From assembly GCA_017454355.1 (NCBI GenBank), contig JAFTDD010000084.1:56318-120317 (forward strand): DNA of 64,000 nucleotides. Direction: 5' to 3'. This document shows positions 20,767 through 48,110 of this stretch, in pieces; position 1 is the stretch's first letter, and every line of letters starts with the position of its first letter. The DNA comes from Muribaculaceae bacterium (GTDB taxonomy: Bacteria; Bacteroidota; Bacteroidia; Bacteroidales; Muribaculaceae). A program made the translations under genes and the position numbers. The notes under the pieces are model-generated. The model did not search any database. It had not been told where the DNA came from and saw only the letters and a list, made by a program, of their open reading frames with translations.

Positions 20767-20810
20767 GACGTCTTGGGAGGCACCCCACAACAGGTGCCCT
20801 ATCAAAAATA

Positions 20811-20849
20811 AAAAAGGCCTTGCGGGTTATTACTCGCAAGGCCTTTTTT
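20811..20849 (+). terminator. pnp terminator
   Basis: AAAAAGGCCTTGCG (20811-20824) pairs perfectly with CGCAAGGCCTTTTT (20835-20848), with a 10-nt loop and flanking A and T tracts. It is potentially bidirectional. Confidence 0.95.
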
Positions 20850-20880: not shown

Positions 20881-20912
20881 TGTGAAAGAATGAAAAATAT
20901 TTTGTAATTTTG
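20881..20912 (+). promoter_or_regulatory. promoter of the structured RNA candidate
   Basis: TGTG at 20881-20884, 20 bp, TAATTTTG at 20905-20912. Transcription would start near 20918 and read through the structured region. Confidence 0.6.
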
Positions 20913-20915
20913 CGG

Positions 20916-21182
20916 TGTCATACCGGGTCAGAGGATCGCAAGAAGTATGACATTACATATTATATAATGGTGTTATTGGCATCAGACTTCTGTTCTCAAT
21001 CTTCGCAACATTGACAATTCCACAGAGGTGATGGTGATAGCATCTACATCAGTTGTTATCATAGCCATCATGCAAATGAGGCTTCCACACGATAGCAATA
21101 CTGGTGTGGGAGCTTTCATATTATCTGTGGAATGGTAGCGAAGACCGAGAACAGGATATGACCCAACAAGGCTCTCGCACCA
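20916..21182 (+). ncRNA. structured RNA candidate, rod-like (possibly 6S / Bacteroidales-1)
   Basis: The sequence folds into nested helices. TGTCATAC/GTATGACA forms a 5' hairpin (20916-20952). UGGUG/CACCA closes the main element (20968-20972 with 21178-21182). CTGTTCTC (20990) pairs with GAGAACAG (21147), TCTTCGC (21000) with GCGAAGA (21138), and ATTCCACAGA (21017) with TCTGTGGAAT (21124). An apical hairpin is GCTTCCACAC/GTGTGGGAGC (21081-21113). A rod with symmetric internal loops, an own promoter and no ORF fits a 6S-type regulator; Bacteroidales-1 RNA has been equated with 6S. Alternatively it is the leader of the LytTR gene, because no terminator is seen before 21279. A minus-strand TAATTTTG at 21251-21244 leaves the strand open. 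Confidence 0.5.
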
Positions 21183-21278
21183 TTTCTGTGTCGATAAAGC
21201 GACTTAAACCATACCATGGCTGGCATTACGAGGGCGGCCTTGCCAAAATTACATATTAATCAAGCATAGCACCCCATT

Positions 21279-21659
21279 ATGCCACGATTCTGTTATTATC
21301 AGCGCGACGAACTCACAATCGTCGACCTTGATTGGCTTGCGCTTGCCAAAGCCGAAGGAAACTATACCATCTTTTTCTACATCGGCGGTGAGAAAGCGAC
21401 AATCACCACCGGCATCAGCCATGTTGAGGCGCTCATCCGTCAAGGGTATGCCGTGGCTGGCACACCCAGCCCCTTTGTGCGCCTGGGTCGCAGTTGTATC
21501 ATCAATGAGAACTATCTGAGCAAGATTGACAACGTCAAGCAGCAGATTGTGTTGAGCGACTTTGTCAAGCGTCACATCATCGTCAAAGTGTCGAAGCCGG
21601 TGATTAGAGCCTACAAAGAGGCTATCCGCTCGGCTTTTGTCAATAACACCAATCATTGA
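21279..21659 (+). CDS. LytTR-domain DNA-binding protein
   Basis: 126 aa, essentially a lone LytTR DNA-binding domain (ALAKAEGNYTIFFYIGG, FVRLGRSCIINENYLSKID). There is no receiver domain or membrane segment, so it is not a classical response regulator. Its activity may be set by binding partners or by amount. The FHA gene starts 6 bp downstream. It may be transcribed from the promoter at 20905, which would put the structured RNA in its leader. It probably regulates the neighbouring kinase/FHA genes, but that is inference from position. Confidence 0.88.
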   Translation: MPRFCYYQRDELTIVDLDWLALAKAEGNYTIFFYIGGEKATITTGISHVEALIRQGYAVAGTPSPFVRLGRSCIINENYLSKIDNVKQQIVLSDFVKRHIIVKVSKPVIRAYKEAIRSAFVNNTNH

Positions 21660-21665
21660 TGAGAG

Positions 21666-22343
21666 ATGGGAAAACAAGTGTTCTTGCTTGGTCGCGGCGT
21701 TGACGGTCCGTTTAAAATCGAAGCCGAGGGTGTAAGCAAGCGGCATGCCTTAGTCACCATCACCACTGATGACGCCACCGGAGAGACGCAATGGGAGATT
21801 AAGGATCTCGGCAGCACCAACGGCACGTTTATCCGCGACGACGCAACCGGGGAAATGCGGCGCGTTAGCGAGGATAAGATTACGCCCGAAACGTTCATTC
21901 GCCTCGGGCCACAAGACGTCCGTGGGATTACGTTTTACGCCTGTCATCTACTTTCACCCGACAACTACGACACCGAGTTCAACCTCTTGGGTGGCATCGT
22001 ATCACGTTTCCGCAAAGAACTTGACCGTGAAGAGACTAAGACACAGATGCGCAACCTCGTCACACCTATACTTTACCTATTTGTTATTATCGTTTCTTTT
22101 ATGCCTTTTGAAAAATTTGGCATAACTGGCAATGGTGATTCCGCTAAAGCAGAGGCTTGGTTGCTTCGTGTGCCCATGATGCTGGGTGGCTTAATTGGCT
22201 TCTTACTGGCGATGTACAACAAAAAGAAAGTGATAACCAAGCGTTATGAGTCAATGCGTTGCTGCCCCAATCCGGGCTGCAACCACACTCTGAGCGAAGC
22301 TGAAATCGAGATGCGTCAATGCAGCCGCTGCAAAGCCCATTGA
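21666..22343 (+). CDS. FHA domain, two-TM, C-terminal zinc ribbon protein
   Basis: 225 aa. Residues 1-95 form a forkhead-associated domain with the phosphothreonine-binding signatures KRHALVTI and DLGSTNGTFIR. Two membrane segments follow at about 135-152 and 167-187. The cytoplasmic tail has CCPNPGCN and CSRC, a probable zinc ribbon. The FHA part would read phosphothreonine marks, plausibly made by the Ser/Thr kinase encoded at 24756. The TM helices tether it to the inner membrane. Cotranscribed with the LytTR gene. The architecture is clear; the partner assignment is inferred. Confidence 0.88.
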   Translation: MGKQVFLLGRGVDGPFKIEAEGVSKRHALVTITTDDATGETQWEIKDLGSTNGTFIRDDATGEMRRVSEDKITPETFIRLGPQDVRGITFYACHLLSPDNYDTEFNLLGGIVSRFRKELDREETKTQMRNLVTPILYLFVIIVSFMPFEKFGITGNGDSAKAEAWLLRVPMMLGGLIGFLLAMYNKKKVITKRYESMRCCPNPGCNHTLSEAEIEMRQCSRCKAH

Positions 22344-22408
22344 TTGGTCAACACTCACGGGCGATTGGTCAAAGAAGTGCGGCTATTCAAACAACATCGA
22401 CGCGAAAA

Positions 22409-22441
22409 TTTGCAAACGGGCTTCCGGCGGTTGTAATTTTG
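22409..22441 (+). promoter_or_regulatory. promoter of the kinase/SUMF1 operon
   Basis: TTTG at 22409-22412, 21 bp, TAATTTTG at 22434-22441, about 130 bp upstream of the ATG at 22568. Between them lie GTAGCA/GTAGCT tandem-like repeats (22487-22527). Confidence 0.65.
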
Positions 22442-22567
22442 CATCGTTGATTTGCTCAACGCCGGCCGGCAACAGCGTCAACTTTTAGCATGTAGCTTGT
22501 AGCAAGCAGCAAGTAGCATGTAGCGAGAGACAACAATTCATCAATTAAACTTTAGAACTATACGACA

Positions 22568-24094
22568 ATGGCAACAAAATCGATTAATTTCAAGTCAGAA
22601 GACAACAAGTCTCTGAGCGTGAGTGAACTCAAGAAGCGTGGTGCAGCAGCCGCAGCCCTTGCCGCCGCAATCATCGGAGGCTCGGTGGCCGTGGGAGGCT
22701 GCTCCGACCCTCAAGAGACAGCCGATGCAGCCGAAGAGCCCGCCGCTGATGCACTCGCCGAAGACCTCGCCGCCGAAGTGGCCGCCAACGAGGCCGCCGC
22801 TCGTGAGCCTCAACAGCCTCAAGCGCAGGCGGCACAGCAACCCGCCCCCCAGGCCCAAACGGCTGAGCACCCCCAGCCCCAGCACATCGCGCAGCATGAG
22901 GCCGAGGCCAATGATGCCGACATACCTGTTGACACTGACTTCCTGAACGGATATGCCAATAGCAATCAAGGCGAACACACCGATGCTCCCGCTCCGGAGC
23001 AGCCCGCCGAGCCTGCGGCCGCACTGCAAGGCATCCCCGCTGTGCCCATGACCATCTTTGAGCATGCGCAGTACACCCCGGTGGAAATCAGCCAGGTGGA
23101 CTTTGGCGGCTCGCCGGTGACCATGGCAGTCACCACCGACCCCAACGGCGAGACGTTCTATCTGGCCGACTTGGACGACAACGGAACGTTCGAGACTGTC
23201 CTCGACAGCGACCTCAACCCGGTTGCTCAACTCAACCTCCCCGGCAGCGACGACCTGTTCGCCGTGAACAAGGTGCAGGAAATCATCGACTATAACAACA
23301 GTCTGCTCAACGGAGAAGACAAGGAGCTCGTGGCCGAGAACACCGTGGCCGATGAGCAGTCCGCCGAGCCACAGCCCGGCGAGCAACCCGGCAATGAGTC
23401 GTGGCCCGAGCCATCAGGCGAGCAGCCCGTCGTGGCCGAACTGCAGGGCATCCCGGCGGCGCCGATGACCATCTTTGAGAATGCAAAATACACTCCGGTC
23501 GAGATCAATCAGGTGGACTTTGACGGCACTCCGGTGACTATGGCAATCACCACCGACCCCAACGGTGACACGTACTATCTCGCCGACATGGACGGCAACG
23601 GAACTTTTGAGACCGTTTTTGACGCCAACCTTAGCCCGGTGGCCCAACTCAACATCCCCGGCAGTGATGACCTGCTGGCAGTGAGTAAGGTGCAGGAGAT
23701 CATCGACTACAACAGCGACCTTCTCAATGGTCAAGACAAGGAGTTCATGGCTCAGCACGTTGAGGCCGATGAGCACCCCGCCGATGAGCAACCTGCCGAT
23801 GAGCCCCTTGTGGCGCAGAACGCCGATGAGCACCCCGCCGATGAGCACCCCGCCGACCAGGACGATGACGTGATCGAGATTGAGGACGACACCATCACCG
23901 ATGAGGTGCTTGTCGAGAACGTCAGCGGAGAGCAAGGCTCTGTGGTGAGTTTCCTCCACAACCTCGTGTTTGGCACCGACGATGACGTGGCCCAGAGCGA
24001 AGTGATGATTGAGGAAAACGAAGAGTTCATCGACGAGCCGGACTATGCCGACGATGTGACAGATGAGCCGATTGTTGACGAACCCGTAGAGTGA
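22568..24094 (+). CDS. acidic envelope protein with two near-identical modules
   Basis: 508 aa, family not recognised. After 24 polar residues comes an Ala-rich hydrophobic stretch ending AVGGC, so it is either a lipoprotein or a signal-anchored protein. An Ala/Glu/Pro/Gln-rich linker leads to two modules of about 103 residues (153-255 and 292-394) that are about 80% identical. Each carries TDPNG and a DxDxNGTFE loop typical of calcium sites. The C-terminal third is very acidic, with DEHPADE-type repeats around 400-440. First gene of the kinase operon. It probably acts outside the inner membrane as a binding or sensory partner; function unknown. Confidence 0.82.
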   Translation: MATKSINFKSEDNKSLSVSELKKRGAAAAALAAAIIGGSVAVGGCSDPQETADAAEEPAADALAEDLAAEVAANEAAAREPQQPQAQAAQQPAPQAQTAEHPQPQHIAQHEAEANDADIPVDTDFLNGYANSNQGEHTDAPAPEQPAEPAAALQGIPAVPMTIFEHAQYTPVEISQVDFGGSPVTMAVTTDPNGETFYLADLDDNGTFETVLDSDLNPVAQLNLPGSDDLFAVNKVQEIIDYNNSLLNGEDKELVAENTVADEQSAEPQPGEQPGNESWPEPSGEQPVVAELQGIPAAPMTIFENAKYTPVEINQVDFDGTPVTMAITTDPNGDTYYLADMDGNGTFETVFDANLSPVAQLNIPGSDDLLAVSKVQEIIDYNSDLLNGQDKEFMAQHVEADEHPADEQPADEPLVAQNADEHPADEHPADQDDDVIEIEDDTITDEVLVENVSGEQGSVVSFLHNLVFGTDDDVAQSEVMIEENEEFIDEPDYADDVTDEPIVDEPVE

Positions 24095-24099
24095 CGACA

Positions 24100-24753
24100 A
24101 TGAGCGACAACACTTCCAACAACAGTAACCAGCAGAACCCTGCCCGGCGCCAAATCAAGGCGTTGGGCAAGGCTTTGTCGGCCGGCCGACCCGGCCAATG
24201 GGCAGTGCGGCAGGTGGCCGAAGTGGGCAAGAAATACTACATTGGCTGTCCCCAATGCGGCAAACCGATTATCATTCAGCCCAGCGCGCGAGGAGACTAC
24301 CTGGCGCGGTGCCGCGAGTGTGGCAGCGTGGTGGCCTTTATGGCCAACGAACAGGGAGCCGCACCCGTAGAGAAGCCGCAGGCCGGTGAGCAGCCAAAGG
24401 CCACCGTCATTGCCGGTGGCGATGTGGAGACTCGCATGGGACAACTCGTGTGGCGCAAGTGGCTCGTGCCGCGCAGCGCGCCGCTGCCGGTGGGCACCAC
24501 CACACTGGGACGCCGCGACGATGCGATGCCCAGCGACCTGATGTGGCGTGACGGCAACATGAGCGCGCGCTCGGTGTCAATCACCGTCAGTCAAGACAAG
24601 AACAAGTCACTACGCTACCAACTCACCGTGCTGCGCGCCACCAACCCAGTCAAGGTCAACGGCCGGGCCTACAGTGCCGGCAGCAGCATCTACCTGCGCT
24701 TTGGCGATGAGATTGTGATGGGAAGCACCCACCTCACTTTTAAACCTCTCTAA
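24100..24753 (+). CDS. zinc-ribbon plus FHA domain protein
   Basis: 217 aa from the ATG at 24100. A GTG at 24091 overlapping the previous stop (GTGA) would add three residues. A zinc ribbon (CPQCGKP then CRECG) lies at about residues 50-75. A linker and a C-terminal FHA-like domain follow (TLGRRDDAMPSDLMW, VNGRAYSAGSSIYLRFGDE). There is no membrane segment, so it is cytoplasmic. It ends 2 bp before the kinase start, implying tight coupling. It is probably a phospho-reader or adaptor for that kinase; this is inferred from domain type and adjacency. Confidence 0.85.
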   Translation: MSDNTSNNSNQQNPARRQIKALGKALSAGRPGQWAVRQVAEVGKKYYIGCPQCGKPIIIQPSARGDYLARCRECGSVVAFMANEQGAAPVEKPQAGEQPKATVIAGGDVETRMGQLVWRKWLVPRSAPLPVGTTTLGRRDDAMPSDLMWRDGNMSARSVSITVSQDKNKSLRYQLTVLRATNPVKVNGRAYSAGSSIYLRFGDEIVMGSTHLTFKPL

Positions 24754-24755
24754 CA

Positions 24756-26384
24756 ATGGACAACGACAAGCAATTCACTTATGCCCTGCCGCCCGGTACC
24801 GTCCTGCGCGGCCATGAAATCAAATATAAAATCATCAAAGTCCTGGGACAGGGCGGCTTCGGCATCACCTATCTGGCCTCGGGAATGTTCCTGCAGGGCA
24901 ATATCTGGCAGGACGGCCGTTTTGCCATCAAGGAATTGTTTGTCAAGGACATCTGCCATCGTGACGCGGGCGATCCGACTATGCGCTACGGGCAGGGGTC
25001 GCAGGCTGTGATTGACCGCTCGCTCGGCGACTTCAAGAGTGAGGCCTCCAAACTCGAGCAGATTTGCAAGGACAATGCCGAGCGGGCTCGCCGCACCGGC
25101 GCCGATTCGCTCATCATCAACAACCGGCACATCGTGCCGGTGAACGAAATCTTCGAGGCCAACGGCACCGCCTATTTTGTGATGGAATATCTGGACGGTG
25201 GCAGCCTGCGCGACATGGTAAACCGCGAGGGACCCCTTCCCGAGGCGAAGGCACTACGGCTGATGAGGCCCATCATCAGCGCGGTGGACTTCCTCCACAG
25301 CAAACGCATCATGCATCTGGACATAAAGCCCGACAATATCGTGATGCGCAGCGAGCGCGGCGCGCTCAGGGCAGCCCCGATGCTGATTGACTTCGGCCTG
25401 TCGCTGCACTTCGACAGCGGCGGCCATCGCACGAGTATGGCTCACGGCTGCGGCTACACCCCCGGCTATTCACCGCTGGAGCAGATGAGCGGCGTGTCGA
25501 CATTCGACCCCAAGTTGGACGTATACTCCCTGGGCGCGACACTCTACTTCCTGCTCACAGGGCTTGACCCGGAAAACGCCTCGACAATCTCAACCGAAGA
25601 CGTGATGCGGCGCCTCAACGGTGTGTCGCCGGAAGCTGTGACAGCGATTTGCAACGCGATGCAACGCGACTCGGCACTGCGCACCTATTCGGCACCCGCG
25701 CTGCTCGAACAACTCAATTCACTGCCCGAGGTGCCTGATGACATGCCATCGGGTTATACCAGACGAGTTGACACGCCAACCGGCCCCACGATGGGCACTA
25801 AGCTCAAAGAAAAGTTGGCACGTGCCATGCGCGCGGCAGTCCCCTATCTGCCACTTATTACAGTTGTCGCGGCTGTTGTTATCGGTGCCATAGTACTGTT
25901 CAAGACGCAGCCCTGGAGAGGTTTGTTAAATTCCTCTTCGTCCGACAGTACTATTGTGGCCAACACCGACTCGATGGCCGCGGTGCCGACAGATACCGTC
26001 CAAACGGAGCCTCCCATCGCCCCTGAGCAAGCGCAGCCAACACCTGACAAAACGGCACAAGAGGCTGCCAAAACCGAGACGGCACCTGCCGCCAAAGAGG
26101 AGCCCAAACCGGCTAAGCCGGAAGATAATAAAAAGCCTGCGGCCGAAAAGAAAACTGTCTCTCAAGACAAGACCAATGACAGCCAACAACCGGCTCAAAG
26201 CGAGGAAACCACAGCAATCCGCGACACAAAGGCACTGAACTATTTCAATACCCTGCGCAACGCCGGCTCTACGCCAGATGCCGCTCAACTGGCCACACTG
26301 CGGTCTATGTTGAAAGGCACGTCACCGCGGGTGAGCAGCCAAATCAAGGCTTACGCGCGCAACGCGTGGGACGCGGATATGTAA
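24756..26384 (+). CDS. transmembrane Ser/Thr protein kinase
   Basis: Eukaryotic-type (Hanks) kinase, 542 aa. The glycine loop is GQGGFG at 31-36 and the ATP lysine K59 is in FAIKE. The catalytic loop is HLDIKPDN at 187-194 (Asp189), the metal motif DFG at 212-214, and the P+1 region PGYSPLEQ. All catalytic residues are present, so it should be active. One membrane helix at about 364-385 is followed by a Pro/Glu/Lys-rich extracytoplasmic stalk and a small C-terminal helical region, with no PASTA domains. Flanked by two FHA proteins, it is the likely hub of the locus. Confidence 0.95.
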   Translation: MDNDKQFTYALPPGTVLRGHEIKYKIIKVLGQGGFGITYLASGMFLQGNIWQDGRFAIKELFVKDICHRDAGDPTMRYGQGSQAVIDRSLGDFKSEASKLEQICKDNAERARRTGADSLIINNRHIVPVNEIFEANGTAYFVMEYLDGGSLRDMVNREGPLPEAKALRLMRPIISAVDFLHSKRIMHLDIKPDNIVMRSERGALRAAPMLIDFGLSLHFDSGGHRTSMAHGCGYTPGYSPLEQMSGVSTFDPKLDVYSLGATLYFLLTGLDPENASTISTEDVMRRLNGVSPEAVTAICNAMQRDSALRTYSAPALLEQLNSLPEVPDDMPSGYTRRVDTPTGPTMGTKLKEKLARAMRAAVPYLPLITVVAAVVIGAIVLFKTQPWRGLLNSSSSDSTIVANTDSMAAVPTDTVQTEPPIAPEQAQPTPDKTAQEAAKTETAPAAKEEPKPAKPEDNKKPAAEKKTVSQDKTNDSQQPAQSEETTAIRDTKALNYFNTLRNAGSTPDAAQLATLRSMLKGTSPRVSSQIKAYARNAWDADM

Positions 26385-26385
26385 C

Positions 26386-26410
26386 TAGATGTTAGATGTT
26401 AGATGTTAGA
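26386..26410. repeat. GATGTTA tandem repeat after the kinase gene
   Basis: Three tandem copies of an 8-bp AGATGTTA unit between the kinase stop and the next start. It creates a spurious upstream ATG. Confidence 0.7.
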
Positions 26411-26416
26411 ACGCTG

Positions 26417-27112
26417 ATGAGAACGTCAATAATAACACTTAGCATTGCGTTGCTGGCCACGATATTCTGTCCGGCGGCCATGGCGGCCACACCGGAGTAT
26501 GCCGGCGGCGCGACAGACAAGGCGGTTGCCGACTCGCTGATTGCCATGCGGCTCGACGCCGGCACAAGCGTCCGCCACACCACTCCGCCCGTGGTGGACA
26601 TCAAGCGACTGGTGGCGATGAGCGACAGCGTCACCTACGTGCTGCCCGGCAAGCGATACGGCGTGCAGGCGCTACGCTCCGACGTGTACGTCACCCTCGG
26701 CAGCGACCGCAAACCGCATTTCGTCTGCGACGCAACGACAAAAACACGCGCCGGGATGACACTCTCAAATCTGCTGTTGCAGGCACTGCCGGCCGGCAAA
26801 CGTTGGGTAACGCTCCACCACTATATGTACGGCGGAAAGGTGCCATGCTTCTCACTGCCGTTGGGCACCGCGCTTGACATTATCGCCGGCAGCGGAAAAC
26901 AAGTCACCGCCTACTGCGCCGTGACAAAGTCTCCGGCCGACAAACTCCACGCCATCGTCATCTATCATGACAAAGTCCTCAACGTGCTGCACATGCTTGA
27001 CGTGACAACAACCCCTGCCGACCTGATGAGCGACACCGGCGACTTCACCGCCCTGCTTAACACAAATATTCCGATGTCCTACTTGAAAAGCATTTGGGGC
27101 ATTAGCAAATAG
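26417..27112 (+). CDS. secreted hypothetical protein
   Basis: 231 aa from the ATG at 26417. An upstream ATG at 26396 lies inside a GATGTTA tandem repeat and would spoil the signal peptide. The signal is MRTSIITLSIALLATIFCPAAMA. The mature part has a VGTDLD-free, alpha/beta look with no catalytic motif I recognise. Segments such as VVDIKRLVAMSDSVTYVLPG and HAIVIYHDKVLNVLHMLD suggest a periplasmic domain. Fourth gene of the operon, 32 bp after the kinase. Function unknown; an external partner of the kinase's outer region is possible. Confidence 0.8.
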   Translation: MRTSIITLSIALLATIFCPAAMAATPEYAGGATDKAVADSLIAMRLDAGTSVRHTTPPVVDIKRLVAMSDSVTYVLPGKRYGVQALRSDVYVTLGSDRKPHFVCDATTKTRAGMTLSNLLLQALPAGKRWVTLHHYMYGGKVPCFSLPLGTALDIIAGSGKQVTAYCAVTKSPADKLHAIVIYHDKVLNVLHMLDVTTTPADLMSDTGDFTALLNTNIPMSYLKSIWGISK

Positions 27113-27131
27113 CATGTAAATATTAACGACT

Positions 27132-28148
27132 ATGATAAGAAGACTATGTTTTGCCGTCGCGGCGGTTATAACCGCGCTGACGGCCGGCGCGCAAGCCACA
27201 TTCTGCGTGAACAGTGGCATCAGCGACGAGGCGCTCATCACGCGCATCGAGAACTCGGTGAACGACCTGATGACATCCATCAACGTGTGCTACGTCAAGG
27301 ACAAAGACAAGGTGCAATTGAGCAAAGAGTTGTTTTCGGAAGGCGCGCGCAATGATGTGAACGAGATGTGGGAAGGCACGGGACACATGTCTGTGCCCGA
27401 CGGCGACTATGCCGGTCCGGTGATTCGTCTGCCAAAAGTGGGGCAACACGATGCCTACGAAGTGCGCAATATTCCGGTCGACTTCCACCGTGGCGACAGC
27501 ATTATGCGCCACGAGTTGGTGCTCGATGTGGGTACTTCCGGCAAGGTGTTTGCCGTCAAGGTTGCCGTTGAGAAGCACAGCTTCATGGAGTTGATGGCCA
27601 ATTCGGGCGAAGTGGATGACTTGGCGCAGCGACTAAGGGTAATCAACTTTGTTGAGCAGTTCCGCACGGCATATATCCGCAAAGACCTGGAATTTCTGGA
27701 GAGCGTCTATAGCGACGACGCTCTCATCATCACCGGTCGCGTGCTGCAGCACAAGGTGGGCGGCGGCATGAAGGATCGGATGAATATTCGCGGCAAGACC
27801 GTTCTCACACGCCAGACCAAACAGGAATATCTTAAAAACTTGAGGGGCATATTCAAGCGGAAAGATTGGCTCAAGATTGATTTTGAGGATCTTGAGATTG
27901 TGAAGGACTTGCGATATGACAACCTGTACGGCGTCACGCTCAAGCAATACTGGCAATCTCCGGGCTACAGCGACATCGGGTGGCTATTCCTGATTATTGA
28001 CATGAGAGACATGGCGCGCCCGCAAATCTACGTCCGCACGTGGCAACCCTATAAAGACACTCAGAACAAAGGCTACAACAAGGAAGATATCATCACCACG
28101 CGCGATGAGGTGTTTGAACTCGAAGACTTCCGAATTGAACTTCTGTAA
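27132..28148 (+). CDS. secreted NTF2-like protein
   Basis: 338 aa with a Sec signal (MIRRLCFAVAAVITALTAGA then QAT). The C-terminal half resembles an NTF2/SnoaL-like fold: LRVINFVEQFRTAYIRKDLEFLESVYSDDALIITG, split over about residues 172-206, then TKQEYLKNLRGIF and IGWLFLIIDM. Such cone-shaped domains often bind small ligands or proteins. The N-terminal half is unassigned. It lies 19 bp after the previous gene and 22 bp before the next, inside the kinase operon. Confidence 0.83.
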   Translation: MIRRLCFAVAAVITALTAGAQATFCVNSGISDEALITRIENSVNDLMTSINVCYVKDKDKVQLSKELFSEGARNDVNEMWEGTGHMSVPDGDYAGPVIRLPKVGQHDAYEVRNIPVDFHRGDSIMRHELVLDVGTSGKVFAVKVAVEKHSFMELMANSGEVDDLAQRLRVINFVEQFRTAYIRKDLEFLESVYSDDALIITGRVLQHKVGGGMKDRMNIRGKTVLTRQTKQEYLKNLRGIFKRKDWLKIDFEDLEIVKDLRYDNLYGVTLKQYWQSPGYSDIGWLFLIIDMRDMARPQIYVRTWQPYKDTQNKGYNKEDIITTRDEVFELEDFRIELL

Positions 28149-28170
28149 ATAACTTCTAATAAATAAAATC

Positions 28171-29604
28171 ATGAAAAGATTATTACTCATTACCGCCACG
28201 TTGCTGGCGTGGTGTGCCACCGCAATGGCACAGAACAAGCTCGAGGTAACCGAGATCACCGGAGAGTCGTTTGATGTCGTAGGCTCGCTCAACGATGCCG
28301 CCGACAGTCGCCCTGTCATTCAATTTATCGTGAGCAAGACAATGCCCTTGCGCTTCTACTCCTACACCGACCCGGCCCCCAACTTCGACACACCCAACGA
28401 TGATGCCTATGTCACTCAAAACGGCGAGGAATTAATCTACACTTGGCGAGTGAAGGTGCTGCCTGAGAATAAGGCTGACAAACGCGTGATTGAGATTGAC
28501 GCGTTCAATTACGACCGCTACTCTCTCAACGTGCGTCCATTGCAACCGCGCGACCGCGTCGTGTACCGCGTCATGGATCCGATGGATCCTATTCACAACA
28601 CCTGCTACCGTCAAAATCGTAACAAGGCATTGGAAGAAATACGCTCCTGCAACTATCGTCAGGCTCAGAACCTGCTCATTCAAGCCGATCTCTGCACAGA
28701 CATCAAACCGGAGGAGCACAAAGAGAACCAACAGAATCTTGACCTTGTCGCCAACTGCATCGAGTTCCGCCAGCGCGCCGACCAGGCCTACGAGAGCGGA
28801 GACTTTGCCGTGGCACTCGAATATTACAACAAGGTGGTGAGCCTTAACATGAATGATGAGTATGCCCGCACCCAACGTGACAAGGTGAAGTTCGACCAGG
28901 GTTACCGCGCTGAGATGCTCTTCGCCGAGGCGAAGTCGATTTGGGACCAGGGCAAGAAGATGCACAAGGATGCCGTTGTCAAGTTCCGTGAGATAGCCAA
29001 GTCTTCCGGTTCAAGTAGCACCTATGGCATGCTCGCCAACGACTATGTGCTCAAGTGGACCCAGGAAAGTATCGCCAGCGTCAACAAGCCGCACGTTCTC
29101 ACCTATGAGTGGCGCAAGGATGTGCCCATCGGCCTGCACACAGGTAAGTACAACCTCCACCGTGCCGGCGGCTTCTTCCAGATTGACCTTAACACCAAGA
29201 TTTTTGACCTCATCCGCGGTGACGGCAGGTTTGAGGGCAAAGAGAATATCAAGAGCACCGTCCACCCCGAGTTCAATATCGCCTTTGGATGGACAATCCA
29301 CCTCTTCGGCGACAAATCGCCTGTGTGGATTCACGTAGGCCCTGGCTTCACCGGCAAATTCTACTATGGTAATTATCTGGAGAAGAACTATCCTCTTGCC
29401 GATGATGATAAACTTGATGAAACAAACGTTAAAGATGATAAAATAAACTTCGCGCCGGCAATCTCGCCTGTCGCCGGTATCACCATCAAGTGGCGCTTCC
29501 TCGCCGCACGAGTTACTTACCAATATCGTTTCACCCTCAAAAGTCAACTCAAAGACTTCATGGGAACGTCGCGCGTGAGCTTCGGCGTCGGTGTGGCTTT
29601 CTAA
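28171..29604 (+). CDS. TPR-like protein with C-terminal outer-membrane barrel
   Basis: 477 aa with signal MKRLLLITATLLAWCATAMA. The N-terminal 100 residues form a beta domain, and the middle (about 150-300) has TPR-like helices (ADQAYESGDFAVALEYYNKV). From about 320 the chain alternates beta strands and ends with ...RVSFGVGVAF, with the terminal Phe typical of outer-membrane barrels. It would place the operon's output or sensor at the outer membrane. The SUMF1 protein starts 11 bp downstream. The family is not firmly recognised. Confidence 0.82.
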   Translation: MKRLLLITATLLAWCATAMAQNKLEVTEITGESFDVVGSLNDAADSRPVIQFIVSKTMPLRFYSYTDPAPNFDTPNDDAYVTQNGEELIYTWRVKVLPENKADKRVIEIDAFNYDRYSLNVRPLQPRDRVVYRVMDPMDPIHNTCYRQNRNKALEEIRSCNYRQAQNLLIQADLCTDIKPEEHKENQQNLDLVANCIEFRQRADQAYESGDFAVALEYYNKVVSLNMNDEYARTQRDKVKFDQGYRAEMLFAEAKSIWDQGKKMHKDAVVKFREIAKSSGSSSTYGMLANDYVLKWTQESIASVNKPHVLTYEWRKDVPIGLHTGKYNLHRAGGFFQIDLNTKIFDLIRGDGRFEGKENIKSTVHPEFNIAFGWTIHLFGDKSPVWIHVGPGFTGKFYYGNYLEKNYPLADDDKLDETNVKDDKINFAPAISPVAGITIKWRFLAARVTYQYRFTLKSQLKDFMGTSRVSFGVGVAF

Positions 29605-29614
29605 CGCATATAAC

Positions 29615-32407
29615 ATGAACAGACTGCGACACACAACAACAATCATGGCGGCCTTGGTCGCCATGATTGTGTTTCACATCACCGCCCAAGAGACGCCGTG
29701 GGAAGAGCGCGTGGAGCGGCAGCGCCAGGCAACCCTCAACGTGGCTCGCGAGATACTCGCCGACATGGTTGTCGTTGACGGCGGCACATTCGCCATGGGC
29801 AACGAGCAAGGCTATCCCGACGAGAAACCTGTCCACAACGTCACCGTCGGCTCTTTTGCCATCGGGCGACATGAGATCACACAGGCTCAATGGCTTGCTG
29901 TGATGGGCAACGACCCGTCTCACCACGTCGGCGCCAACGGGCTACCGGTCGACAATGTGAGTTGGGACGACTGTATCAAATTCATTGAGGCTTTAAATGA
30001 GGCCACCGGCCTAAGGTTCCGTTTGCCGACTGAGGCCGAATGGGAATTTGCCGCGCGTGGCGGCAAAAACAGCCACGGTACACGCTTTGCAGGTAGCAAT
30101 GACGGCGATGGCGTCGCGTGGCATAACGGCAATGCACAATCTTCACAGCCCGTCGGCAGCAAGGCAGCCAATGAGATAGGTCTATATGACATGAGCGGCA
30201 ACTTGTGGGAATGGTGCGCCGACTGGTACGGCGAGGACTACTATAGCGCCAGTAACGGCGCCGTCAATCCCACGGGACCGGCCGAGGGCGAATATCACAT
30301 CGTTCGCGGCGGCAGTTGGTATCGCAGCACAGTGTGCATGCAAGTGAGTTATCGTGAGAAGCATGCCGCATGGCTTGCCTATGACGACGTGGGCGTGCGT
30401 CTTGCTCTCACCATCGAGGGTAACACACTCCCAACAATTTCCGCCACTCCCCTGCCTCCGGCAATTACTCGGCCAGAACCAGAGATTATTGAAAATGTGA
30501 TAAAACATCAACCGGTGTCCACTTCGGAGTCAAAGCAGCAATCAATGCCTACACCGGAGTCAAAGCAACAACCGGTGTCGACTCCGAAGCCGCAGCCGGC
30601 TCCATCTCAAAGACCTGCCACACAACAACCATCGCAACCATCGCGTCAGAATCCGGAACGGACCACTGCCGCAACACAACAAGCGACTTCCGCTCTTCCG
30701 GCGCCTATAGCCAAGTTGATTGGCGACATGGTGCGCATTGACGGCGGCACATTCCAGATGGGCAACATGAACGGCTACGCCGACGAGCGTCCCGTGCATC
30801 AGGTCGGTGTCGGCACATTCCTTATCGGTCGATATGAGGTCACGCAGTCTCAATGGAGTGCCGTGATGGGTAATAACCCCTCTGAATTCAAGGGTGACAA
30901 TCTGCCGGTCGAGAATGTCTCGTGGGAGAACTGCGCCGCCTTTATCAGCAAACTCAACGCGATGACCGGCAAGCAGTTCCGCCTGCCCACCGAGGCCGAG
31001 TGGGAGTATGCCGCGCGAGGCGGCCGCCGCAGCAACGGCTTTACCTACTCCGGCGACGACAATGTTGACGGCGTGGCATGCATCAACGACAGCCACACTC
31101 AACCTGTCGGAACCAAATGGCCCAATGAGTTGGGCCTCTATGACATGAGCGGCAACGTGTGGGAATGGTGCAGTGACCTCTACGCCGAGGGATACTATGC
31201 CTCGAGCCCGGCCAAGAATCCCACCGGTCCCGCAACCGGCGAATACCGCATGATGCGTGGCGGCAGTTGGAGTCGCGGCGCCGTGTGCGCCCGCGTCACC
31301 TATCGTGACAAGCACGCGCCCACTCTCGCCTACAACGACGTGGGCCTGCGCCTGGCACTCTCCGTTGAAGGCAACACCCCGAGCGCGCAACCGAGCCATG
31401 GCCAGACTCAACATCGCCGCGACAACGCGAGTCCCGCAAGTGGCGACCGGAATTCCGGCAGGGCTGATGCGAGCCCTGTTAGGGGCGACCGGAATTTAGG
31501 CAGGGGTGGAGCCGAAGGCGGAACCCCTGCACAGGCCCAATCCCCGCATAGCCCCGTAGGGGCGACAGCCGCCGCCGCAACCGGTGCAGCCGTCACCACG
31601 GCCGCCACTTCTGCCGGCGGCCAACGGCCAACGGTCAACACTTCACCCTCACCTTACGAATCCTCATCGCGCAAGACTGCCAAGAAAGAGCCGCTGCCCG
31701 AGCGCCTCGACGAGGCCAAATGGCCTGAACCCGTCAAGCAACTGGTTGCAGACATGGTCACCATCAACGGCGGCTCGTTCATGATGGGCAGTGACGACGC
31801 TGACGCCGACATACACGAGCACCCCGCCCACAACGTCACCCTGTCGACGTTCTCAATCGCAAAGCACGAGGTGACTCAAGCCCTGTGGCGGGCGGTGATG
31901 AACAACAACCCCAGTGCCGTCAAAGGCGACAATCTGCCGGTGACCAACGTCAGCTGGGACGACTGCGAACTCTTCATCGCGCGCCTCAACGCCATCACCG
32001 GCCGCTCCTTCCGTCTGCCCACCGAGGCCGAATGGGAGTACGCCGCACGTGGCGGAGACAAGGACGTGCAGGGCAAGTATGCCGGCAACGACAATATCCA
32101 CGGCGTCGCTTGGCATAACGACAACAGCACCGGCACTGTCCACGATGTGGGCACAAAGGAAGCCAATGAACTTGGCCTGTTTGACATGAGCGGCAATGTG
32201 GGCGAATGGTGCGCAGACTTTTACTCAGGCACTTACTATCGCACCTCGCCGGCTAACAATCCCAAGTGCACCGACGAGGGGCCGTCGAGGGTGTTCCGTG
32301 GCGGCAATTGGAACAGCAGCGCCAAGGATTGCCGCGTCAGCGCGCGAGCCCGTTTCTCTCATAACAACGCTCGCGCCGGCCTGGGCCTGCGCCTGGCTTC
32401 CGACTGA
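29615..32407 (+). CDS. triple SUMF1 (formylglycine-generating-enzyme-like) protein
   Basis: 930 aa from the ATG at 29615. The ATG at 29591 lies within the upstream gene and precedes the signal MNRLRHTTTIMAALVAMIVF. Three SUMF1/FGE-sulfatase domains span about 40-275, 365-585 and 705-930. Each has DMVxxxGGxFxMGN, RLPTEAEWEFAARGG, LGLYDMSGNVWEW and RGGSW. In each C-terminal motif only one Cys is present (GGSWYRSTVC, GGSWSRGAVC, GGNWNSSAKDC), where true FGEs have two. Oxidase activity is therefore unlikely, and a binding or scaffold role is more plausible. Linkers are Pro/Gln/Ser-rich; the second contains a repeat-derived peptide (31427-31570). Last gene of the kinase operon. Confidence 0.93.
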   Translation: MNRLRHTTTIMAALVAMIVFHITAQETPWEERVERQRQATLNVAREILADMVVVDGGTFAMGNEQGYPDEKPVHNVTVGSFAIGRHEITQAQWLAVMGNDPSHHVGANGLPVDNVSWDDCIKFIEALNEATGLRFRLPTEAEWEFAARGGKNSHGTRFAGSNDGDGVAWHNGNAQSSQPVGSKAANEIGLYDMSGNLWEWCADWYGEDYYSASNGAVNPTGPAEGEYHIVRGGSWYRSTVCMQVSYREKHAAWLAYDDVGVRLALTIEGNTLPTISATPLPPAITRPEPEIIENVIKHQPVSTSESKQQSMPTPESKQQPVSTPKPQPAPSQRPATQQPSQPSRQNPERTTAATQQATSALPAPIAKLIGDMVRIDGGTFQMGNMNGYADERPVHQVGVGTFLIGRYEVTQSQWSAVMGNNPSEFKGDNLPVENVSWENCAAFISKLNAMTGKQFRLPTEAEWEYAARGGRRSNGFTYSGDDNVDGVACINDSHTQPVGTKWPNELGLYDMSGNVWEWCSDLYAEGYYASSPAKNPTGPATGEYRMMRGGSWSRGAVCARVTYRDKHAPTLAYNDVGLRLALSVEGNTPSAQPSHGQTQHRRDNASPASGDRNSGRADASPVRGDRNLGRGGAEGGTPAQAQSPHSPVGATAAAATGAAVTTAATSAGGQRPTVNTSPSPYESSSRKTAKKEPLPERLDEAKWPEPVKQLVADMVTINGGSFMMGSDDADADIHEHPAHNVTLSTFSIAKHEVTQALWRAVMNNNPSAVKGDNLPVTNVSWDDCELFIARLNAITGRSFRLPTEAEWEYAARGGDKDVQGKYAGNDNIHGVAWHNDNSTGTVHDVGTKEANELGLFDMSGNVGEWCADFYSGTYYRTSPANNPKCTDEGPSRVFRGGNWNSSAKDCRVSARARFSHNNARAGLGLRLASD
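31427..31570 (+). repeat. in-frame repeat element inside the SUMF1 gene
   Basis: Two 42-bp direct repeats (31427 and 31469) encode ASPASGDRNSGRAD and ASPVRGDRNLGRGG. They are followed by GCAGGGG...CCCCTGC inverted arms (31500-31506 with 31524-31530) and a further CCCCGTAGGGGCGAC. The base pattern is that of an intergenic palindromic repeat rather than coding DNA. Confidence 0.6.
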
Positions 32408-32461
32408 TTTTTGCCTCACGTGAGAAAAATAATTGAAGGCAATTCCTGTTAAAAAAACGAC

Positions 32462-32501
32462 AAAAAAATGGCTTGTGATTTAATTTTACGAGCCATTTTT
32501 T
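32462..32501 (+). terminator. terminator of the kinase/SUMF1 operon
   Basis: AAAAAATGGCT and AGCCATTTTTT form a perfect 11-bp stem with a 17-nt loop, ending in a T run, about 55 bp after the SUMF1 stop. Confidence 0.9.
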
Positions 32502-47703: not shown

Positions 47704-48100
47704 GGGGCTGACTTGGCTTTGACAGCGTGTAGAGGTGATGAGTAAGCATGCAGAGCGATGATGGCTATGCTCTTTAAAATCAGACATCGACTTAATTAAA
47801 TGGCGCAAACAACTACGCTCTTGCTGCCTGATCGAAGTATAGTAGATCGGCTTAATCCTCGCCCATAGCGCGGGGACAAGACATCACCCGGTGGCCGTGG
47901 CTTCGAGGCTTATCGACAAGGTGGTGCTAGCATATCGGAGATAGGCGACGGGGAGTCCCGACCCTGACCCGAAATTTAGGGGCTAAGTCTTCGGTTGGCG
48001 GTCACGGGCCTGCCGACGGTCGAAAAACAATCCGCGACTAAGCATGTAGAAACCTGATTGTCTCCGCGTTTGGACGAGGGTTCAAACCCCTCCAGCTCCA
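47704..48100 (+). ncRNA. ssrA: transfer-messenger RNA
   Basis: The acceptor stem pairs GGGGCTG (47704) with CAGCTCC (48093-48099), with a T-arm GGTTCAAACCCC just before it. CCA is not encoded. The tag frame GGC GCA AAC AAC TAC GCT CTT GCT GCC TGA at 47802-47831 gives GANNYALAA. Together with the charged alanine it marks stalled peptides for proteolysis. The segments between the tag and the 3' end contain several pseudoknot-like complementary runs. Confidence 0.97.
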
Positions 48101-48110
48101 CATCGCAATT

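Follow-up and report, generated by a model that had tools for sequence, protein, structure and literature searches.

The LytTR Regulatory Systems act through DNA sites which, according to the accessible part of the source, consist of 9-bp repeats spaced by 12 bp and located just upstream of the -35 element (PMC6193735). A different described arrangement occurs in Agrobacterium, where the accessible text reports that TssL has a threonine (Thr14) near its cytoplasmic N-terminus, phosphorylation of which depends on PpkA and is read by Fha (PMC3953482). Kinase, caspase, FHA, formylglycine-generating enzyme (FGE)-like, Sel1 and PP2C domains are mentioned, in the accessible part of a further source, for published conflict systems (PMC7159879). 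The locus described here has elements in common with each of these. It was found in a stretch of 64,000 nucleotides from a Muribaculaceae bacterium (assembly GCA_017454355.1, contig JAFTDD010000084.1, positions 56,318 to 120,317 of the forward strand), the whole of which is called the window below, and comprises nine open reading frames, genes A to I, on the plus strand at 21279-32407. The best explanation for this locus appears to be a phosphothreonine-gated LytTR Regulatory System, to which we give about an even chance.

An earlier note on this stretch had described a continuous plus-strand set of nine genes, and the open reading frames and domain searches bear out the set and its contents, save for a barrel protein discussed below. 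Gene A (21279-21659, +) encodes a stand-alone LytTR DNA-binding protein of 126 amino acids; there is no receiver domain and LytTR is the sole match (PF04397, E 1.6e-4), at 22.3 bits just under the cut-off of 22.6 for the protein alone and at this cut-off (22.6 bits) when A is scored with its neighbours in frame. The assembly has five LytTR matches, of which A alone is short and stand-alone; its gene was hidden by an antisense open reading frame in the gene calls. Gene B (21666-22343, +) follows after 6 bp (the median A-B gap in 31 loci is 4) and encodes a protein of 225 amino acids with an FHA domain (E 5.3e-9 in the domain search), two hydrophobic segments (residues 127-154 and 164-184) and a zinc-ribbon-like C-terminal end with CxxC. 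A gap of 224 bp separates B from C, and genes C to I follow each other at distances of 2-22 bp, with C and D overlapping if GTG is the start of D. In the sequence, a terminator hairpin after pnp (20810-20849, +) separates the locus from the upstream genes and a second one follows gene I (32462-32501, +), while a promoter of the Bacteroidota type, TTTG-N21-TAATTTTG (22409-22441, +), precedes C. The promoter and terminator that had been proposed to bracket eight genes are both present, and they enclose seven, C to I; A and B lie outside, downstream of the pnp terminator and upstream of the C promoter. A program scan, the models of which do not cover these types, listed neither the C promoter nor the hairpin after I.

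The predicted link between A and the genes from C onwards is a direct repeat with a period of 21 bp, TTGGTCAAAGAA-N9-TTCAAACAACAT (22365-22397, +), newly noted here, which closely precedes the -33 box of the C promoter, in the geometry expected of a LytTR operator. Taken alone the window copy is weak, and because a site matrix was too weak for the window's own site and was abandoned, the case for the operator rests on an offset test in relatives. When 18 non-redundant loci of 21, including the window, were aligned on the promoter box, the 12-column self-identity of the upstream sequence peaked at 0.55 at offset 21, and no other offset between 10 and 34 exceeded 0.37. The box itself recurs: gaps of at least 60 bp after B contain a TAnnTTTG-type box in 24 of 27 cases, against 4.2 expected from shuffles. 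Where a caspase gene stands between B and C, the promoter and the repeat move to directly before C, and self-identity in these loci is 0.57 at offset 21 and 0.46 at the next best offset (10 of 22 gaps alignable). A held-out set was drawn from 40 loci fetched later, two of which are in previously used genomes (G117 and G394) at different places; it comprises 19 C candidates, one of 20 having been excluded for want of an FHA link and L164_10 having been kept though it resembles a non-C protein. The 10 of these 19 FHA-linked candidates that have a promoter gave a self-identity of 0.68 at offset 21 and at most 0.42 elsewhere, and the repeat was also seen by eye before three more C-like genes outside the set that defined it. 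As a negative control, the sequences preceding A, which could be aligned for 13 of 38 A genes, showed no 21-bp peak, with 0.37 at offset 21 and a best value of 0.42 at 20. The second half-site of the window repeat is identical to that of locus L045, and a scan of the assembly with a pattern built from the window and its nearest relatives, allowing two mismatches, returned the window site and one other; the reversed control returned none. Loci L067 and L068 were left out of the promoter, operator and N-tail counts. A second 21-bp repeat occurs in the same genome at G000:C63:16969-17001 (-) (L150), in the same placement and with a matching promoter, before the gene of a 163-amino-acid lipoprotein, which is a possible further target of A.

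Gene C (22568-24094, +) encodes an acidic protein with a short N-terminal tail (MATKSIN...), one hydrophobic segment and two repeated modules of about 105 amino acids, identical to each other at 81 of 105 positions. Domain searches gave no family match for C, and no fold could be assigned to the module, the model of which is of low confidence (predicted local distance difference test score, pLDDT, 69.5) and has no structural match at E ≤ 0.001. The order of a short tail and then a hydrophobic segment is common to the C proteins, the tails of which are biased towards threonine. The discovery set started from 85 candidates, of which 20 were taken out by hand (secreted, housekeeping, duplicate or truncated) and the remaining 65 fell into 60 clusters. 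Threonine is found in residues 2-15 of 57 of the 60 cluster representatives and in 56% of 1025 other proteins from the same loci; for the motif TxxPhi (Phi, hydrophobic) in residues 2-17 the corresponding values are 38 of 60 and 27%, and chance occurrence in shuffled C tails is 8.7 of 60, with a maximum of 19 among 2000 shuffles. The dominant tail spellings are M.T..[IL]N and NEETIY.G, the latter often with the hydrophobic residue at +2. A looser motif, T-x(1-2)-Phi, picked after seeing the data, occurs in 49 of 60 discovery tails (shuffles 16.8, maximum 28) and in 13 of 19 held-out tails (shuffles 5.7, maximum 12). The N-tail threonine is, judging by these counts, a good candidate phosphorylation site, and is treated as no more than a candidate, since the strict motif replicated weakly in the held-out loci.

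Possible readers of such a mark are encoded on both sides of C. Gene D (24091-24753, +; start GTG at 24091 or ATG at 24100) encodes a zinc ribbon, which was matched, followed by an FHA-like domain with a weak score (0.029, under the cut-off). The alignment positions that we take to be phosphothreonine contacts are well kept, both in the B family (n = 53; G 53, R 49, S 50, H 53, N 51) and in the D family (n = 56; G 56, R 56, S 55, N 53), in alignments that include the duplicates L067 and L068 (copies of L045 and L046) and, for B, also rows from L012 and L013. The same residues are present in the window's own B and D. Gene E (24756-26384, +) encodes a Hanks-type kinase (kinase domain 1.7e-31) with a hydrophobic segment from about residue 364 and a long tail beyond it. 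The catalytic residues are intact, with the glycine-rich loop GQGGFG, the lysine in AIKE, the HLD of a non-RD motif (HLDIK) and DFG. A scan of viral contigs found no relatives of the kinase. According to the earlier note two FHA readers flank the kinase; in fact both FHA genes, B and D, precede E.

A similar order of these genes recurs in other genomes, more than expected by chance. PP2C homologues (E ≤ 1e-40), found in 25 of 393 genomes of the order and 109 of 397 genomes of the family, served to anchor 42 loci with full flanks, two of which are other clusters of the window's genome with a different order. Since these loci were taken from the better-scoring matches, the following fractions are not genome-wide rates: an FHA gene lies directly upstream of the PP2C gene in 32 of the 42 loci, a C-type gene within four genes upstream in 33 and a kinase gene within three genes downstream in 26, while B is found in 27, a caspase (by profile) in 23 and LytTR in 20. 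The last value is an undercount, as the gene caller hides LytTR in the window and perhaps elsewhere; antisense open reading frames likewise hide D in L099, L117 and L144, as a six-frame check showed, and the N-termini of some proteins (L151, L161) are uncertain. The search for the same gene order in other Bacteroidales that had been suggested as a check was therefore mostly positive. The recurring core consists of LytTR, the FHA membrane protein, C, often a secreted caspase, the zinc-ribbon FHA protein, PP2C and the kinase, and is followed by an exchangeable payload of Sel1 proteins, SUMF1 proteins or F-G-H. Shuffling of neighbours between close relatives, named in the earlier note as a refuting result, applies in part: the payload is exchanged, and the caspase and C genes swap places between groups, while the order FHA-C-FHA-PP2C-kinase is mostly kept in the window's family. 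The cassette is probably common in this family, although not all of the PP2C homologues found there lie in one. Some PP2C relatives (L122, L124, L132, L133, L141, L143) have no labelled FHA or C neighbours and represent a different phosphatase setting.

These elements can be arranged in a single scheme. Protein A would bind the direct repeat of 21-bp period that precedes the C promoter, and would drive the operon from C to I. B, made together with A, would either restrain A, as the membrane protein of a LytTR Regulatory System inhibits its regulator, or recruit it. The kinase E may watch the envelope by means of its portion past the membrane segment, together with the exported partners F, G, H and I, and would phosphorylate a threonine at the tip of the tail of C, which in the predicted topology is cytoplasmic. 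The FHA domains of B and D would then read the phosphothreonine, by which the treatment of A by B would change, so that the signal would run from the envelope to the promoter. In many relatives PP2C would erase the mark; in the window's organism a PP2C from another cluster may act in trans. The assembly, which is 89% complete, has two PP2C_2 matches only (C60:43614 and C70:16176), both in other FHA clusters. These paralogous clusters (G000:C60:41814-47658, L012, and G000:C70:12955-18458, L013) contain an FHA protein, two kinases, PP2C, a further FHA protein and an FHA-FHA protein with, by eye, a protease-like C-terminal part, and one FHA protein in each has a threonine-bearing tip at its end.

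A number of observations weigh against this scheme. No PP2C gene is found between D and E in the window locus, and a caspase gene, present in many relatives, is missing too, so that the complete signalling device which the earlier note saw in this set does not hold for the window copy. In a locus of G005 the kinase is accompanied by a Sel1-like protein (by eye) and by F, G and H, and genes for LytTR, FHA and C are all missing, so the kinase and the payload can occur in the absence of the other genes; the core is rearranged in some loci of other families (L178-L181, L184, L185). The halves of the window repeat agree at 5 of 12 positions only, and its site matrix score of 6.1 is below that of chance matches elsewhere in the window. 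Autoregulation of the LytTR gene through a repeat upstream of A was dropped as a candidate, as relatives show no 21-bp offset peak there; a matrix scan upstream of A in 38 relatives gave scores higher than the second-best of 20 shuffles in four (L049, L123, L128, L138), which is about chance, and in the window neither the weak matrix nor the half-site pattern matched a repeat upstream of A. In the held-out C tails threonine occurs in 14 of 19, with 12.8 in shuffles, and the strict TxxPhi motif in 7 of 19, with 3.3-3.4 in shuffles and a maximum of 9, which is a weak replication. Finally, 20 of 49 B proteins have one hydrophobic segment rather than two.

The genes after E start, by eye, with signal-peptide-like segments. 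Gene F (26396-27112, +) encodes 238 amino acids and gene G (27132-28148, +) a protein with a weak NTF2-like C-terminal part; neither gave a match above family cut-offs. The model of F is confident (pLDDT 88.1) and weakly resembles NTF2-like proteins (best Foldseek E 0.011), and its fold was left unassigned as there was no structural match at E ≤ 0.001; the best sequence match of G among solved structures has E 0.38. Gene H (28171-29604, +) had been called a barrel protein, for which the searches made gave no support; a weak TPR match covers its middle part. Gene I (29615-32407, +; also open from GTG at 29591) encodes three SUMF1/FGE-like modules (FGE-sulfatase, three stretches, 1.5e-145), the third of which has the variable protein TvpA of Treponema as its best match among solved structures. 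Compared with structure 6s07, and at the positions which we take to be the catalytic cysteine pair of the formylglycine-generating enzyme, module 3 keeps the second cysteine and lacks the first, and modules 1 and 2 have an arginine near the first position. A working formylglycine enzyme was rejected for this reason, and as the modules are without the first catalytic cysteine, binding seems likelier than catalysis. The exported proteins F to I could be sensors or the regulated product; both roles are possible.

Matches to G at E ≤ 0.001 occur in 101 of 397 family genomes, many of them covering only its C-terminal half in other proteins; on genome contigs, G was found in 23 loci of Muribaculaceae, Prevotellaceae and other Bacteroidota. 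A search of 61 genomes found H in 2, one of them that of the window. Homologues of F and G are also found behind a tubulin-like protein of about 1020-1070 amino acids (PF13809) and a zinc-ribbon-like protein, which replace the kinase (L079:2359-11344, the only case checked with Pfam, and for example L057, L064, L072, L074, L075, L077 and L080), so the exported F-G module seems to have two front ends, a kinase or a tubulin-like protein. In L065:1386-11065 a ThiF (E1-like) gene and a number of unidentified genes are found close to a G homologue. A 628-amino-acid protein with a signal-peptide-like start (G000:C13:33941-34597; L087:7754-9640) shares only the C-terminal part of G, and similar proteins of about 640 amino acids are frequent in the window's family. 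Elsewhere in the window, a transfer-messenger RNA gene is located at 47704-48101, with the tag GANNYALAA.

The chief rival to the gated regulatory system is an envelope machine in which E and the FHA proteins steer, in the manner of type VI secretion, the building of a complex from C, F, G, H and the SUMF1 protein, with LytTR merely setting expression. The accessible account of PpkA, Fha and TssL offers a precedent (PMC3953482), the signal-peptide-like starts after E fit such a complex, and I scores with the GldK/PorK model. That score, 240.4 bits, is far under the NCBIfam cut-off of 350, and membership of the type IX secretion system is not supported. Type VI secretion families were not listed in the domain searches for any of the nine proteins, the only part of the window and genome searched for them. 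Also against such a machine, payload genes are swapped between relatives, and the repeat in front of C links the operon with LytTR. On balance we regard this explanation as unlikely.

The caspase, Pfam-confirmed in relatives as C14, also raises the possibility of a conflict or cell-death system, in which caspase, kinase, PP2C and FHA proteins would defend the cell in relatives and the window would hold a reduced copy. The same domains are mentioned for published conflict systems in the accessible part of PMC7159879, the caspase profile matches in more than half of the anchored loci, and there are matches to the PADLOC models for kinase, caspase and PP2C proteins. These matches look to us like common domains rather than a common system and do not support membership of a defence system; moreover, the caspase proteins seen start with signal-peptide-like segments (by eye), and vWA and MoxR were unmatched among the nine proteins, which makes defence very improbable. 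Little more can be said for a loose neighbourhood, in which the LytTR-FHA pair and the kinase operon share a strand and act independently. The position of the promoter does suggest that A-B and C-I are transcribed as separate units, and the kinase of the G005 locus does without the pair. Against this stand the recurring order in relatives and the LytTR-type repeat, which stays immediately in front of C also in loci where another gene lies in between, and independent action is in our view improbable.

We know of no input described for the membrane proteins of LytTR Regulatory Systems, and of few targets or transcriptional outputs of Hanks kinases in Bacteroidota. The cassette joins both gaps: a probable substrate of the kinase and its candidate site, the two proteins that may read it, and a regulator together with its predicted DNA site are found in one place. 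A literature search, in which most subscription papers and preprints were not covered, showed no description of this gene combination among the papers listed, and no paper covered by it contains both 'LytTR' and 'FHA domain'. The locus could represent an undescribed class of trans-envelope switch in bacteria, in which an FHA-bearing LytTR partner reads the Ser/Thr-phosphorylated N-terminal tip of a dedicated acidic membrane protein, with the result that phosphosignalling of the eukaryotic type gates directly a LytTR operon with an exchangeable exported set; we put this at somewhat below an even chance.

Among described systems, PorK/GldK of type IX secretion resembles gene I in being a SUMF1-like exported protein of Bacteroidota; I differs by its three modules and its score below the cut-off, and por/gld partners are absent among the nine genes. 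The vWA-MoxR and related conflict systems have in common with the cassette domains of the FHA, caspase, Sel1 and kinase types, as well as the pairing of kinase and PP2C genes, as far as the accessible text describes them (PMC7159879), and differ in the vWA and MoxR proteins, for which the nine proteins gave no match. The PpkA-Fha-TssL set of Agrobacterium type VI secretion, in the available part of its description, likewise combines a Hanks-type kinase, an FHA reader and a membrane protein with an N-terminal threonine (PMC3953482); here LytTR is linked, no secretion genes were matched and no relation between C and TssL was seen. The earlier note could not match the set to a named system, which holds for the whole and not for the LytTR and membrane-protein pair. 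This pair resembles the LytTR Regulatory Systems HdrRM and BrsRM of Streptococcus mutans, in which, according to the accessible part of PMC6193735, a soluble LytTR regulator is immediately followed by a membrane-protein gene and paired direct repeats with a 21-bp period lie a short way upstream of the -35-type box belonging to a controlled promoter. Compared with these, membrane protein B bears FHA and zinc-ribbon parts, the repeat precedes the C operon instead of the regulator gene as in autoregulated systems, and a kinase is added, together with PP2C and a caspase in relatives.

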